Part shown: piece by piece, positions 1 to 7,271 of the stretch | How the letters are laid out: the number at the start of each line of letters is the position of its first letter | Numbering within the stretch: position 1 is the stretch's first letter | Assembly (NCBI RefSeq): GCF_007752535.1 | Contig: NZ_CP036431.1 | Location: 1 to 64,000, forward strand | DNA: 64,000 bases | Reading direction: 5' to 3' | From: Tautonia plasticadhaerens | GTDB taxonomy: Bacteria > Planctomycetota > Planctomycetia > Isosphaerales > Isosphaeraceae | Translations under genes and position numbers: made by a program | Notes under the pieces: generated by a model | Databases searched by the model: none | Seen by the model: the letters and a program-made list of their open reading frames with translations, nothing else | Told to the model about the DNA's origin: nothing

Positions 1-1371
1 ATGAACATCGCCGAGTTCCCGATCACGCTCCTGGCCGATCGCGCCCCCAGGGGGCAGCGTCGGATTGAGTACGCCGACCGGATCTTCGACCCGGGCTCCG
101 GTCGGGAGATTGACCGGAGGCTGGTGATCAGCGCGCCGGAGGAATACGGCCTGCCCACGGCGATCGACGACGACGTGATCCTCGCCCTGATCCAGCTGAC
201 CCGTCGCCAGAACGGCTTCGCCAAGCCGGAGGTGTACTTCTCCCGGCTGCAGCTGATCGACCTGCTGGGCTGGCCCGACAAGGGGCGCAGCTACGACCGG
301 ATCGCCGCGTCGCTGGACCGCTGGGCCAGCACCTATCTCAAATATGAAAACGCGTGGTGGGACAACGAGGGGCGCTGCTGGACCAGCGGCGGCTTCCACA
401 TCATCGACAGCTACAAGCTCGGCGACGGCCGGGCCTCGGGGGGGAGGGGGTCGCGGTGCCGGGTGGTCTGGGGGCGGGAGTTCTTCAAGAGCTGCCAGGC
501 CGGCTACCTGAAGGGGCTCGACTACGACCTCTACATCCGGCTGACCAGCCACCCGGCCCGCCGGATGTACCGCTTCCTGGACAAGCGGTTCTACCACAAG
601 GCGGAGTGGGAGTTCGAGCTCAAGGACTTCGCCTTCGAGCACGTCGGCCTGAGCCGGACCTACCGCGACGCGGGCAAGATCAAGGAGAAGCTCCGCCGGG
701 GAATCGAGGAGCTGGAGGAGGTCGGGTTCCTCGTCCCCCTGCGTCCGGACGAGCGGTTCGTCAAGCAGGGGAGGCGCTGGGTGATCCGGATGACCCGGGC
801 CCAGGCCGAGCCGGCCGAGGAGCCTCCCCCGGGGGTCGGAGCCGACCCGATCGTCCGGGATCTGGTTGACCGGGGGGTCACCCCGGCCACCGCCGTCGAG
901 CTGGCCACGTCGCACCCGGCCGGGGCGATCGCCCGCCAGGTCGAGGCCTTCGACTGGCTCATCTCCCGGGAGGACCGCCGGGTCCGCCTGAGCCCGTCGG
1001 GCTACCTCGTCGAGGCGATCCGCAAGGACTTCGCCCTGCCCCGGGGGTTCGCCTCCAAGGCCGACCGCGAGGCGAGGCGTCGCGAGTCCGAGGACCTCTT
1101 CAGCCAGGGCCACCAGGATCGCCTCAGGGAGCGTGAGCGGGCCGCCCGGGGGAAAGCCGACCGGGAGGCCATCGATCGCTTCTGGGAGGCCCTGGGGCCT
1201 TCAGAGCGGTCCCAGGTCGATGACCAGGCTCTCGCCGTGGCCCCCCCGGAGGTCGTCGAGGCTTATCGGGGGATGACCCCGGCCTCGCTCAAGGCCGTCT
1301 TCTTCCGGGACACCGTCCGGGACCCGTTCATCCTCGGCCTGATCCGGGGGGATGCTCCGGCGGCGACGTAG
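1..1371 (+). CDS. repA: plasmid replication initiator protein RepA-like
   Basis: The 456-residue protein looks like the replication initiator protein A family found on plasmids of planctomycetes and proteobacteria. Such proteins bind the plasmid origin through winged-helix domains and recruit the host replisome. The first ~270 residues carry the conserved core (aromatic-rich stretch SYDRIAASLDRWASTYLKYE near residue 100, then RMYRFLDKRFYH and FELKDFAFEHVGLS). The C-terminal third is charged and likely helical. The ATG is base 1 of the window, so no upstream signal can be judged; this suggests the replicon was linearised at this gene. Its 3' end faces the epimerase gene. Family assignment is from recognition of the pattern, not a search. 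Confidence 0.85.
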   Translation: MNIAEFPITLLADRAPRGQRRIEYADRIFDPGSGREIDRRLVISAPEEYGLPTAIDDDVILALIQLTRRQNGFAKPEVYFSRLQLIDLLGWPDKGRSYDRIAASLDRWASTYLKYENAWWDNEGRCWTSGGFHIIDSYKLGDGRASGGRGSRCRVVWGREFFKSCQAGYLKGLDYDLYIRLTSHPARRMYRFLDKRFYHKAEWEFELKDFAFEHVGLSRTYRDAGKIKEKLRRGIEELEEVGFLVPLRPDERFVKQGRRWVIRMTRAQAEPAEEPPPGVGADPIVRDLVDRGVTPATAVELATSHPAGAIARQVEAFDWLISREDRRVRLSPSGYLVEAIRKDFALPRGFASKADREARRRESEDLFSQGHQDRLRERERAARGKADREAIDRFWEALGPSERSQVDDQALAVAPPEVVEAYRGMTPASLKAVFFRDTVRDPFILGLIRGDAPAAT

Positions 1372-2666: not shown

Positions 2667-3805
2667 GATCACCCGGTGATCACCCGGTGATCGCGCCCCC
2701 GATCCGGTCCCGGTCGGGGCGATCGGCGGTCCCGGAGGGCTCTCGAAGGGGAGGCCCCGGGGACGCCCTCCCGATGGCCTCGTCCCGAGGTGCCGGGGAT
2801 CGAGGACCGTGCCCCGCAGGAGAAGCCGTCCGGGAGCCTCCCCGTCGGCGACGGGGGCGATGTTCCCCTCCGGTTCGCGGCCGATCGCCGAGGGGGTGAT
2901 CACCCGGTGATCGGGGGGAGCGCACCGGGGCGCGGCGGGTCCCGATCACCGGCCGGGCATGGCCCCCGGGAGGCAGGGGCCGGAGGATCAACGACGCCCG
3001 ATCACCGATACTCCCGGGAGGACAAAACGGGCCTCCGGTTCGGGGTGATCACCCGGTGATCGGCCGGGGCGGCCGAGGTCCTGGAGACGGGGTGATCACC
3101 CGGTGATCGGGCCCCATGGACGGTCCAGGTCGAGGGGCGACGAGATCGGCCGATTGCCGACGGCCCCGGGGTGATGAGGCCGCCCCTGACCTGGCGTGAT
3201 CACCCGGTGATCACCGTCCCGGGGGCCCGCCGAATACTGGACGACGTTCCGCCCGAGGTCGTTTGTCGTCCGGCAGATCGGCGGCGGCGATCCCGAGTTG
3301 GTCGCCGGCGATCGAGGAGGCCCCCGACCCCGGGCGAAGGTGGGCTGGTCGGGCACGAATCGGGGGAGGACCGGCAGCCCCGGCCGCCGGGCGATCGCCC
3401 CGGAGGAGGCCCCGAGCTGGCGTCCCAAGGGTGGCGTGATCGCCGGGTGATCGGCGGCTGGCTGAAGACCCCCGGGAGGGGGTGGTGATGCCGCTCGCCG
3501 GGGGGGTGATCACCCGGTGATCACCGTCCCGATCCGTCGTCGGTGCCCATCTCCCGGCGGCGCGATCACCGGGTGATCGGGGCGTCTGGCCGTCGCCCTG
3601 GCGCACCAGGTCGGGGCGTCGAGCCCACGCCCTTGCCGGCCGTCCCGGTGCGGTCGGGGAGGGCGTCGACGATGCGCCGATCACCGGGTGATCGGCGGCG
3701 GGTGGTCTTGCCGTCGGGGCGTCCCGGGGGGATCCATCGCGTCCCCCGGACGGCGATCGGCCCGGGGGCCGGGTCGGGAGGAGGGCGCGGTGATCACGGG
3801 TGATC
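2667..3805. repeat. cluster of 15-bp GATCACC-N-GGTGATC palindromes (putative parS/centromere or Rep-binding sites)
   Basis: Sites with central C: 2667-2681, 2678-2692 (sharing one GATC), 2898-2912, 3047-3061, 3094-3108, 3198-3212, 3508-3522. Sites with central G, i.e. inverted: 3564-3578 and 3679-3693. Variants: 3438-3452 (GATCGCCGGGTGATC) and 3792-3805 (one base shorter). Half sites occur at 2944 and 2998. Seven-base arms are perfect palindromes and the two GATC boxes lie 11 bp apart, about one helical turn. Spacing between sites is irregular (47-240 bp), unlike phased iterons. The last copy lies about 80 bp before parA, so the cluster likely serves ParB binding and/or parAB autoregulation; binding by RepA is the alternative. 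No gene is credible in 2397-3885. Confidence 0.8.
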
Positions 3806-3885: not shown

Positions 3886-4716
3886 ATGGCCGTGGTGGCG
3901 ATGGTGAACCAGAAGGGGGGCGTGGGCAAGTCGAGCACCACGATGCACCTGGGGGGGCCCTGTCGAGGAGGGGGCTCCGGGTGCTCCTGGTGGACAACGA
4001 CGCCCAGGCGAGCCTGACCAAGGGGCTGCTCGGCGACGAGGAGGCGAGGGGGCTCGACCCGGCCACCACCGTCTACGCCCTCTACGCCGGGATCCCGACG
4101 CCGGCGGAATTGCTCGTCCGGCCGACGGCCTTCGACGGGCTGGCCCTGCTGGCCGGGTCCCCGGCGTCGATCAGCTTCAACGTGCCGGACCCGCACCGGA
4201 TCGACCCGAGGGACCAGGCGGTGCTCCGGGACGCGCTCCGGCCGATGGCCGAGGGTTCGACCTGACGCTGATCGACTGCTGCCCGAACCTCCAGCGGGCG
4301 ACCTGGTCGGCCCTGCTGGCGGCCGACTCGGCCCTGATCCCGACCATGCCCGAGCTGTTCGGGGCGCAGGGGCTGGCGGAGGTCCGGGACTGGGTGACGC
4401 TGTCGAGCAGACCTGGGGCCGGCCGCTGCCGATCCTCGGGGTGCTGGTGACGATGTTCAACGGCCGGAGGGCGATGCACCGGACGTTCGTCGAGCTGCTG
4501 GCCGGCGGCTGCCCGGAGCTGCTCTCGGGCACCGTCCCGGAGTCGGCCGACTTCCCGGAGGCGATCGCCGCCGGCCGGCCGATCCACTATCACAAGCCCC
4601 GGGGCGCGGCCGCCCGGGCGATGGACGGCGTCGCCGACGAATTGCTCGATCGCCTGGCCGCGCTCGGCCTGCTCCCGGCGTCGGGGATCTCGGGAAGGAG
4701 GCGGCCTGACCCATGA
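3886..4716 (+). pseudogene. parA: ParA-type partition ATPase, reading frame broken by three single-base indels
   Basis: Concatenating three frames gives a full ParA/MinD-like Walker ATPase that drives plasmid segregation. Frame 1 from 3886 (good SD AGGGAGGG) encodes NQKGGVGKSSTT, the deviant Walker A with the signature lysine. After a base loss in a run of seven G at about 3951-3957 the protein continues as LLVDNDAQASLT (Walker A'). A second loss near 4256 shifts to DLTLIDCCPN (Walker B). A third loss near 4401 shifts to the C-terminal part that ends at 4716, overlapping parB by ATGA. No frame alone makes a working ATPase. The three changes look like single-base deletions, compatible with sequencing error in GC-rich DNA or real decay; I cannot separate the two. 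Confidence 0.75.
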
Positions 4717-5776
4717 GCACCCCCAGCGACAAGGCCCGCGAGCGGACCCTCTCGAAGTACGGCGACGCGATGCGGTCGAGCCTCGGGTTCAACCGGACCC
4801 CGGGCACCCGCTCGGCATGGCGCCGCCGAATGGGAGCGTCGGGGCGAGGATGGCCGGCGTGGTCAACGACCGGGAGGCGGCGGTCATCGAGGTGGCCCGG
4901 ATCGCCCCCGACCCGGAGCAGCCCCGCCGGGGAGTTCGACGAGGAGGCGATCGGCCGGCTGGCCGAGTCCCTCCGGGCCCGGGGCCAGCTCCAGAACGTC
5001 GTCGTCTTCTGGTCCGAGGACCTCGGGTCGTACGTGCTCGTCTCCGGGGAGCGGAGGTGCGGCCGCCCGCAAGGCCGGGCTGGCGACCCTGCGGTGCAAG
5101 GTCCTCGACCGGCGCCCCGACGACGCCGACCGGCTGGCGATCCAGCTCATCGAGAACTGCGTCCGGGAGGACCTCCGGCCGGTCGAGCAGGCCGCCGCCT
5201 TCCGGTCCCTGATGGAGGGCAACGGATGGAGCACCCGGCAGCTGGCCGAGGCCCTGAACATGGCCCAGGCGACGGTGGTCTACGCCCTCGGCCTGCTCGA
5301 CCTGCCGGAGGCGCTCCGGGCCCGGGTCGACCGGGGGGAACTCGCCCCCCGGACCGCCTACGAGATCGGCCGGCTCGATCGCCCCGAGGACCAGGAGGCC
5401 CTGGCCGATCGGGTCGCCTCCGAGGGGCTCACCCGGGACGACGTCGTCGCCGAGGTCCGGGCCTCCTCCCAACCCCCGGGCGACGCCGGAGAGAAGGAGG
5501 CGGGGGCATCGGCAAGGGCCGGTCGAAGGGCAGGGGGGGGGCCTCCCGGGGTCGAAGGGCAAGGCGGGCCCCCGCCTGCCGACCTCGAAGGTGTTCCGGA
5601 TCCCCGGCGGCCGGCTGACCGTCGAGCGGTCGAAGGGGCTCGACGCCGAGTCCTACCGCGCCGCCGCCCTCCTGCTGCTGGAGCAGGCCGACCGCCTCGA
5701 TCCCCCGGCCGACTCACCCTCCTCCCCGGCCGTCGACGACGCCGATCCCGGGGCCGACCCCGGCCTGGCGGCCTGA
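4713..5776 (+). pseudogene. parB: ParB-type centromere-binding protein, frame broken about four times
   Basis: Pieces in three frames line up as one ParB. They are an N-terminal stretch from ATG 4713, then VNDREAAVIEVARIAPDPEQ (from about 4864), then the ParB/Srx-like GQLQNVVVFW...YVLVSGERR box. Next comes LATLRCKVLD...IQLIENCVREDL and the helix-turn-helix STRQLAEALNMAQATVVYAL, followed by a C-terminal dimerisation-like tail ending at 5776. Apparent indels lie near 4810, 4930, 5062 and 5530 (a run of G). ParB binds parS palindromes and loads a nucleoprotein complex that ParA pulls apart, so the GATC palindromes upstream and at 6326 are its natural candidate sites. Overlap with parA shows one operon. 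Whether it is dead or mis-sequenced is open. Confidence 0.75.
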
Positions 5777-5858
5777 TCGGGGGGACTGCCCCCCGGTCGA
5801 CCCGATCGGCCTCCCCATCGCCCCCCTCCCGACCGGAGATCCGCCGGTCGGGAGGGGA

Positions 5859-6147
5859 TCGGTGCGCTCCCGGTGCATCCCCAGGATTCTCCGCAACGCG
5901 TTTCGAGGCAACGAATTGCCGGAGGACAAATGGGTTCGCTCGGTCGCAAGCGCACCGACGGGCCGACGCCCCTCCCGATCGGCCCTCGGCGGCCCCGATC
6001 CGCCTGCCGGTCGCTTCCCGGGGCGAGGTCGTCCCGATCGGGTCCTTGCCGACGGGACGGGGTCGGTGCGCCCAAGGTGCGCCCCCGAGATTCTCCGCAA
6101 CACCCGTCCAGATGGCGGTTTGCCGAATTGCAAATGGGTTCGCTCGG
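5859..6147. repeat. pair of 85-bp diverged direct repeats
   Basis: Copies at 5859-5943 and 6063-6147, 204 bp apart and of equal length. Conserved blocks: TCGGTGCG at the start, ATTCTCCGCAAC in the middle, and CAAATGGGTTCGCTCGG at the end; the rest has drifted. They lie in the non-coding stretch between parB and the DUF4058 remnant (5777-6534). I see no gene in that stretch, and the function of the repeats is unknown. Confidence 0.7.
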
Positions 6148-6319
6148 CGCGGCGCACCGGGGCGGAGTCCCCCGCTCCCCGATCGGCCGGGGAGGGGCCG
6201 ATGTGCCTCGGCTCGGCGGCGACGGTTCGGGGGAGGCGGTGCGGGTCCACGGGGGCGTCCTCGGTTCGGGGGCTCGCCGTCGAGGGCCGGGGCTCGACGG
6301 CCGCCGGGGAGCCATTCCT

Positions 6320-6346
6320 CCGCGCGATCACCGGGTGATCGCGCGG
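6320..6346. repeat. solitary extended palindrome, 27 bp, containing the parS-like core
   Basis: The core 6326-6340 is the central-G form of the 15-bp site. Here the symmetry continues six bases further on each side (CCGCGC / GCGCGG), making 13-base perfect arms around one G. It sits beyond parB, 2.5 kb from the main cluster. It could be a high-affinity ParB site, an operator or a hairpin. Confidence 0.75.
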
Positions 6347-6534: not shown

Positions 6535-7271
6535 ATGCCGCTGCGAGACCACTTCCGGCCGCCGCTCGACGACCTCATGCCCTGGGATGGGGTCCACGGT
6601 GGCTGGCCCATGAAAATCGTCGAATGGCTCGGGCGGAGGCTGCCTCGGGGTTCGTCGCGGCGCCCCACGTCCACCTGGGGTCGTCGATCGAGGTCGACGT
6701 GGGGACCTTCGAGCGGGCCGAGGAAGGGCCCCCCGGCTGGCGATCCGACGTGGGGGAGGGCGGGGTGGCGACGGCCGTCTGGGCGCCGCCGAAGCCGACG
6801 CTCGGCGTGGCGACCGACCTGCCGGGGGCGGACGAATACGAGGTGCTCGTCCACGACACCCGGAGGGGGCGCCGGCTGGTGGCGGCGGTGGAACTCGTCA
6901 GCCCGTCGAACACGGACCGGCCCGAGCACCGCCGGGAGTTCGCGACGAAGTGCGAGGCGATGCTCCGGCAGGGGGTCTGCGTGGCGATCGTCGACGTGGT
7001 GACGACCCGGTCGGCCAACCTGTACGGCGAGCTGCTGTCGAGGCTCGGGATGGCCGACCCGTCGCTCGGCGACGAGCCGACGCCGACCTACGCCTCCTCC
7101 TGCCGGTGGTCCCGGGGCGGGGGCGAGCAGCGGCTGGAGGCCTGGGCGTACCCGATGGGGCCGGGCCTTCCCCTGCCGACCCTGCCGCTCTGGCTGGCCC
7201 CCGGGCTGGCGGTGCCGCTGGAGCTGGAGGGGAGCTACGAGGAGACCTGCCGGGTCCTCCGGATCCCGTAG
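6535..7271 (+). pseudogene. DUF4058 family protein, frameshifted copy
   Basis: Starts at ATG 6535 behind AGGAGG with MPLRDHFRPPLDDLMPWDGVHGGW, then loses one base near 6646. It continues in another frame as FVAAPHVHLGSSIEVDVGTF through VAAVELVSPSNTDRPEHRREF to ...GSYEETCRVLRIP at 7271. The reconstructed protein matches the intact paralogue at 14929-15672 along its whole length. DUF4058 proteins are very numerous in planctomycetes and have no known function. One base loss in a G run (CGGGG) may be real or a sequencing error. Confidence 0.75.

Follow-up and report, generated by a model that had tools for sequence, protein, structure and literature searches.

The KorB operator is a ParB-family site present in several copies per plasmid. 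In the IncP plasmid RK2, this operator (OB) reads TTTAGC-C/G-GCTAAA (PMC2680271); the available parts of two further reports give it as a 13-bp consensus (PMC5577506) and as a 16-bp OB (PMC11790492). The canonical chromosomal parS (TGTTTCACGTGAAACA) is an even 16-bp palindrome with a central CG, and the accessible text of PMC5450999 describes this one sequence as common to chromosomes. The same text describes the Bsr systems of Burkholderiales secondary replicons, in which related ParBs have replicon-specific parS and do not interfere with each other within the cell. Positions 173 and 201 of ParB and Noc are base-reading specificity positions, with Gln173 preferring adenine and Arg201 preferring cytosine, as stated in the available portion of PMC7383237. 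For planctomycete plasmids, the accessible portions of two reports mention ParA and ParB and do not name the sites (PMC5352709, PMC12603096). The parS of planctomycete plasmids was not found in the titles and abstract openings of the open-licence literature searched, and the open-licence literature searched likewise yielded no family of odd-centred parS for Spo0J-like ParBs of plasmids.

In this study, a 64,000-nt window was analysed, namely nucleotides 1–64,000 of a 91,178-bp plasmid (contig C6) of Tautonia plasticadhaerens ElP that was opened at repA. The genome comprises 9,395,224 bases in 6 contigs, and the available part of the published description lists an 8.67-Mb chromosome together with five plasmids (0.28, 0.14, 0.12, 0.09 and 0.09 Mb; PMC7716859). 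A cluster of palindromes of the pattern GATCACCNGGTGATC (GATCACC-N-GGTGATC) is located between a sugar epimerase gene and parA (Table 1). This cluster is very probably the plasmid's own parS within a ParABS system, and its arms appear to have diversified together with the ParB recognition helix in each plasmid lineage.

Table 1. Positions of the putative partition sites and neighbouring genes in the window
Feature	Position	Strand	Basis	Remark
repA (RPA, PF10134)	1..1371	+	profile match	neighbour, judged outside the site system
site 1, GATCACC-C-GGTGATC	2667..2681	+	exact match	4-bp overlap with site 2
site 2, centre C	2678..2692	+	exact match	
site 3, centre C	2898..2912	+	exact match	
site 4, centre C	3047..3061	+	exact match	
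site 5, centre C	3094..3108	+	exact match	
site 6, centre C	3198..3212	+	exact match	
imperfect site (GATCGCC-G-GGTGATC)	3438..3452	+	mismatch search	one substitution
site 7, centre C	3508..3522	+	exact match	
site 8, centre G	3564..3578	+	exact match	
site 9, centre G	3679..3693	+	exact match	
imperfect site, 14-mer	3792..3805	+	read from sequence	one base short, nearest parA
parA (Walker-type ATPase)	3886..4709, end approximate	+		broken into frames, intact in relatives; three one-base losses relative to T. sociabilis and gene-end differences
parB (ParB_N and HTH_ParB)	4713..5776	+		broken into frames, intact in relatives; five frame-changing indels inside the gene
outlying site past parB, centre G	6326..6340	+	exact match	

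Ten exact copies of the 15-mer were detected in the window, and 19 matches with up to three mismatches were obtained against a mean of 5.4 (maximum 10) in 100 dinucleotide shuffles. These ten are all the exact copies in the whole genome, and nine of them lie within 1.3 kb upstream of parA. A whole-genome search detected no exact copy on the chromosome or on any of the four remaining plasmids, and the reversed pattern did not occur anywhere in the genome. The genome-wide count had been named beforehand as a refuting test in the initial annotation, and the 15-mer was found to be confined to this plasmid and not spread over the chromosome. That annotation had reported eleven copies between 2667 and 3805; nine are exact, and the number holds only if two imperfect copies are included, one with a substitution and one that is a base short. 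The seven copies described with a central C were recovered, and, leaving aside the copy that is a base short, G is central in the other three copies of the interval. The irregular spacing was also confirmed, and the last copy, described as lying just before parA, ends 80 bp ahead of the parA start. The proposal that the central base orients the sites failed, as C and G are mixed within the clusters of four Tautonia genomes (C7/G4, C7/G4, C3/G2 and C2/G5 on the parA strand, with degenerate copies included as scored).

The parA and parB genes of the window are frameshifted as read, and their function in this very plasmid is therefore not assured. Relative to T. sociabilis, eight frame-changing indels are scattered within the two genes, six of them single-base, and there are further differences at the gene ends. 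The substitutions at codon positions 1, 2 and 3 number 30, 11 and 80 in parA and 42, 33 and 102 in parB; because the differences concentrate at third codon positions, selection on both genes acted until recently. The broken frames fit consensus errors or very recent decay. These indels and gene-end differences, together with the shortened site and the substituted site, are what might be expected if the par operon of this plasmid had decayed and the sites were leftovers or were served in trans. Such a relic is unlikely given the excess of third-position differences, the single-base and scattered nature of six of the eight indels, which is expected of consensus errors, and the ten sites that are still letter-perfect. 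Further along the window, a gene with a DUF4058 match below the curated cut-off (6535–7271) shows an apparent frame change near 6640, and broken frames may consequently extend past parAB. Two degenerate copies of a stretch of about 60 bp (attctccgcaac ... caaatgggttcgctcgg) are located at 5886–5943 and 6090–6147, between parB and the outlying site at 6326.

The same arrangement was found in congeners. The three other Tautonia genomes contain 10, 6 and 8 exact 15-mers, 8, 5 and 7 of these, respectively, being situated upstream of a parAB with intact frames, and ParB_N and HTH_ParB domains were confirmed in two congener ParBs, both scanned by Pfam. The organisation is that of a ParABS system, with parA adjacent to a parB of the ParB_N/HTH_ParB type (intact in the three congeners and frameshifted in the window) and with cis sites near parAB that are confined to the replicon. 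In two congeners, an outlying exact 15-mer (position 1501 of L030 and of L031) is found where one and the same gene ends (frame with ...GEVEELIRRLSPIEG...), which makes it a conserved distant site; in genome G041, 80 kb of the contig separate it from the cluster. Single 15-mers occur in eight genomes of other genera, with A or T at the centre in seven of the eight; the three that were read in context (L022, L025 and L028) are each inside a long open frame, and these single copies look like background.

Palindromes with 7-bp arms and one central base, spelled with other letters, are present upstream of parA on the sister plasmids. The arms in T. plasticadhaerens are GATCCAC on plasmid C2, TACTCGC on C3 and CATAGCC on C4, so that, with C6 included, four plasmids sharing a cell each have a site of their own, as in replicon-specific parS of the Bsr type. 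The exact patterns of C2, C3 and C4 (the last as the 13-mer ATAGCCNGGCTAT) were found genome-wide in 1, 3 and 3 copies, counting exact forms only, and on their own plasmid only. On C2, the distance between the sole exact copy and the estimated parA start is 971 bp, and the two copies closer to parA are altered. Elsewhere, the arms are TATAC(C/G)C on pPL62-3 and three relatives, GTTTCCC on pPL62-2, CCTGCAC on pEP7_01, GGTGnAC on pEP7_02, GTTACGC on pSINAC01, GTTGCAC on pSINAC02, ATTTCCA on Frigoriglobus pPL17-1 and GTTTCCA on pK2D_1, and more exist. A second ParB copy on pPL62-2 (L112), which is without a recognised parA and near strong repeats, is possibly a decaying duplicate.

Of the 34 strong loci, the 31 in which parA was recognised were counted, the other three being left out. 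Their sites number 147, and 124 of these are upstream of parA, a tally in which parA starts are estimated, more upstream than downstream DNA was fetched, which favours upstream counts, and the class inside parAB includes the window's 6326 copy owing to the broken frame. The gap between parA and the nearest site in these loci has a median of 73 bp and ranges from 11 to 223 bp. Proximity to parA, the odd-centred operator from which KorB represses at a distance, as described in the available parts of PMC11790492 and PMC2680271, and the outlying copies (at 6326 and, in two congeners, at the gene end noted above) would suit sites that are mainly operators, with the ParB-family protein acting as a KorB-like repressor of parAB and distant genes and with partition as a secondary role. 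This is quite improbable, given that eleven copies are crowded at one place and not distributed over many promoters, that the protein is nearer ParB (E 2.6e-28) than KorB (4.8e-10) among solved structures, and that the Pfam match is HTH_ParB, with no KorB-domain match in the two ParBs scanned. An operator role in addition to partition is likely because the sites crowd the upstream region of parA, and the two roles would be compatible.

The proximity of an initiator gene was weighed in the same manner. The gene repA lies on the same plasmid about 1.3 kb from the cluster, and the sites could accordingly be binding sites or iterons of the RPA-type RepA that control plasmid replication. The sister plasmids make this very unlikely. 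On C3, repA is at 85 and the palindromes are at 57.6 kb beside parAB; C4 has parAB and sites and no PF10134 match; and C5 has RepA, no ParB_N and no comparable odd cluster (in 5-kb tiles, odd scores of at least 22 occurred only in an AT-rich stretch). The sites are irregularly spaced and symmetrical, unlike direct-repeat iterons, and their arms covary with ParB; the tie to a rep gene and the regular direct repeats of iterons are lacking. On C5, the fourth plasmid (92 kb; L194, 3579–4619, minus strand), an RPA-type RepA occurs with a ParA-like frame, a profile search gave no ParB_N match, and palindromes such as ACCAAGGCGCCTTGGT are located at 5306–6182; this plasmid may use another partition partner. 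On the chromosome (C1, about 1,998,000–2,006,000; L042 and L190), a ParB_N match, a ParA-like frame and an RPA-type RepA are close together, perhaps as an integrated plasmid.

The initial annotation had also linked segregation to replication through Dam-type methylation of GATC. Each site carries two GATC boxes 11 bp apart, and two matches to the D12 methyltransferase family (PF02086) are present on the chromosome, which would suit a Dam/SeqA-like reading of the methylation state that couples segregation to replication. Across the non-redundant site types, 22 of 24 share the geometry without GATC, which is contained only in GATCACC and GATCCAC, and GATC is frequent throughout both small plasmids (9.6 and 10.3 per kb). 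The presence of GATC in the sites is therefore regarded as incidental, the Dam link is unsupported, and a methylation-reading function is extremely improbable. GATC methylation in the host is possible and is not tied to the function of the sites.

The odd centre was evaluated on ParB relatives sought in 45 genomes of the order, which added 40 loci to those already at hand. Fifty-six loci were tested, two of them from plasmids of other orders, and the palindrome score of each locus was compared with 60 dinucleotide shuffles. Among the 38 parA-linked ParB loci, palindromes with a spacer of 1 beat all 60 shuffles in 34, those with a spacer of 0 in 3 and those with a spacer of 2 in none; at the 18 loci without a recognised parA, the corresponding numbers were 5, 4 and 5. 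The three positives with a spacer of 0 are GATCACC loci, where the flank creates a nested GGTGATCACC palindrome. Even-palindrome signals were observed at the parA-less loci L109, L112, L116, L119, L121 and L123. No significant cluster was obtained in the shuffle test at four of the 38 parA-linked loci (L091, L104, L108 and L115). The shuffles do not model local AT-rich stretches, and in a 5-kb tile scan of all of C5 and C6 AT-rich patches alone gave odd scores of 28–36 vs 135–152 for the cluster. Six positive loci have scores that do not exceed those of such patches (L089, 19; L102, 19; L117, 18; L100, 23; L094, 27; L101, 27), and their support consequently comes from shuffles, position and kinship. 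The shuffle test covered loci other than the seven ParB_N matches on the strain's own chromosome C1; L042 and L043 were scanned for repeated palindromes only. Of the 164 copies in the loci kept for covariation, 149 have a central G or C.

A control was performed on 52 of 63 ParB loci across bacteria, 11 (ten Bacillaceae-type and one Lachnospiraceae) being left out by hand. Canonical or near-canonical even parS was recovered at 11 of the 32 loci outside the query group (L147, L148, L150, L151, L152, L154, L161, L162, L179, L184 and L185). In these 32 loci, L187 (Paraburkholderia) was clearly odd, and L170, L171, L180 and L185 exceeded the odd null by 1–2 units. The odd cluster beat the shuffles in 14 of the 20 loci closest to the query, 13 of which had already been used; in the shuffle test on the seven new ones, it was present in L133, L134 and L139 and absent from L141, L143, L144 and L145. 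Fourteen plasmid ParBs of other lineages were further picked by hand among 60 listed matches. Clear even sites were found in seven (L201, L203, L204, L205, L208, L209 and L210), with L201 and L210 also passing the odd null by 3–4 units, and L214 (Paraburkholderia) had the sole clear odd site. L213 was above the shuffles at several spacers with imperfect AT-rich palindromes, L202, L206 and L212 were marginal, and L207 and L211 gave no palindrome signal in the shuffle test.

The exact even core GTTTCACGTGAAAC is present in 14 of the 45 genomes of the order, adjoining a chromosomal-type ParB in G004, and in none of the four Tautonia genomes; a one-mismatch version is located near the chromosomal parAB of T. 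plasticadhaerens. In a tree of 53 ParBs, whose root row has 12% of columns filled and in which 19 of 50 inner branches are open, the odd and even labels change three times, and none of 500 shuffled labellings had as few changes (mean 12.8). The odd palindromes of the two Paraburkholderia loci L187 and L214 (GTCCATA-S-TATGGAC and GTCTAGA-S-TCTAGAC) belong to ParBs that the tree sets away from the planctomycete group, within the even side.

The relationship between the arms and the ParB recognition helix was analysed on 34 loci with a score of at least 22 and at least 3 copies, which were collapsed at 75% identity to 24 ParB clusters; L112 (repeat-rich) and L122 were removed by hand, and L089, L102 and L117 were under the threshold. 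Of the 24 non-redundant ParBs, 23 have half-sites with T at -5, 20 with C at -1 and 19 with C at -3. Residue-base pairs were picked from 350, with correction for kinship limited to the collapsing. The top pair links Gln at residue 189 to A at -6, which was present in 9/9 ParBs with Gln vs 1/15 without it (Fisher 7.6e-6). Arg or Lys at residue 194 goes with C at -3 in 18/19 vs 1/5 otherwise (p 0.0023), and Arg at residue 217 goes weakly with C at -2 in 3/3 vs 4/21 (Fisher p 0.017, uncorrected). Further high-ranking pairs involve residues 193, 161 and 200. In the alignment to Caulobacter ParB (motif GKSR), residues 189 and 217 correspond to positions 173 and 201, the base-reading positions described above.

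Recognition-helix distance was correlated with arm distance (Mantel r 0.358), and the partial correlation after the N-domain was 0.343 (p 0.0002), a test in which the window's own row consists of the HTH-holding open frame only, the N-domain being mostly missing. N-domain distance alone gave r 0.287 (p 0.007). Six loci outside the covariation set (L133, L134, L139, L117, L187 and L214) fit both the 189 and the 194 rules; all six are without Gln at 189, so that the Gln-A rule is tested there only by the absence of Gln. L102 (two copies) fits the Gln-A rule and breaks the Arg-C rule, and L089 (two copies) breaks the Gln-A rule and is ambiguous for the Arg-C rule. The initial suggestion of a parS for a planctomycete plasmid is supported by the replicon-specific sites, by their position upstream of parA here and in relatives, and by this covariation, and the assignment is further based on the odd clusters by parA and the shuffle tests.

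The half-sites match canonical GTTTCAC at a mean of 4.12 of 7 letters vs 1.88 (sd 0.24) with letters shuffled. Derivation of the odd site from canonical parS by the loss of one central base was considered and rejected, since the register in which a base is gained matches better (3.62/6 vs 1.83/6). The link of Gln 189 is to -6 and not to the outermost base -7, which is in tension with the gained register. At the even sites of Acetobacter and Gluconobacter, Gln goes with A at -7. As a lead and not a result, Gln 189 may read a base that is one step further in than at even sites and roughly as far from the dyad.

The clustering of the sites, their odd geometry, their position, their replicon specificity and the covariation were read from the sequence, and a mechanism can be proposed on this basis. 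A ParB dimer would place one HTH domain on each half-site, the half-sites being like those of canonical parS (GTTTCAC type), spaced one bp wider around a lone C:G pair. If the protein behaves like characterised ParBs, its loading, probably dependent on CTP, and its spreading would start at the cluster, and ParA would move the ParB-site complex to achieve segregation. The copies beside parA may allow ParB to repress its own operon. Arm letters and recognition-helix residues appear to have changed together in each plasmid lineage, and plasmids in one cell would thereby keep their partition systems apart and avoid incompatibility. With somewhat less than even confidence, we suggest that the additional central base pair distinguishes a large lineage of planctomycete-plasmid ParBs from the host chromosomal parS, that a small code (189/-6, 194/-3 and perhaps 217/-2) made more than 20 spellings, at least four of them in one cell, and that odd parS arose more than once, in planctomycete plasmids, in a Paraburkholderia plasmid lineage and in KorB.

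If the centromere assignment is true, these sites are, within the open-licence literature searched, the first centromeres to be proposed for planctomycete plasmids, and they would account for one cell holding several related low-copy plasmids without a partition clash. They would also provide a natural set of diversified ParB-parS pairs for studying the change of specificity and of half-site spacing. Possible applications of such pairs are orthogonal tags for labelling DNA and modules that stabilise planctomycete vectors.

Comparison with known systems places the sites between several described types. The planctomycete sites share half-site letters with canonical chromosomal parS, and their ParBs have the same domains; they differ in having one central base instead of an even centre with a central CG, and in comprising many plasmid-specific sequences instead of one that is common to chromosomes. 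The even 16-bp form was not observed in the 38 parA-linked loci, apart from the nested palindromes at three GATCACC loci. NBS, the site of Noc, is even. Noc resembles the planctomycete ParBs in a specificity change at the recognition helix and beyond, involving the Gln-adenine and Arg-cytosine preferences; it differs in having one alternative specificity and in serving nucleoid occlusion, not plasmid partition. The Bsr systems similarly combine related ParBs with replicon-specific parS, but their sites are 16-bp palindromes with a central CG dinucleotide, a form that the planctomycete sites do not take. KorB OB, the nearest precedent, is likewise a plasmid ParB-family site and is palindromic around one central C or G, the centre also found in the planctomycete sites. 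OB differs in its 13-bp core, vs 15 bp here, and KorB is a more distant relative that also acts as a long-range repressor with KorA; no Pfam match to a KorB-type DNA-binding domain was obtained at E 1e-3 in the two ParBs scanned, and the nearest solved structures are ParB, Spo0J and Noc. An odd-centred ParB-family site (KorB) and replicon-specific parS (Burkholderiales) are already known. The initial claim of a new parS class accordingly stands for the geometry with one central base, which differs from canonical parS, and yields to the KorB operator as the older odd-centred site of the ParB family.
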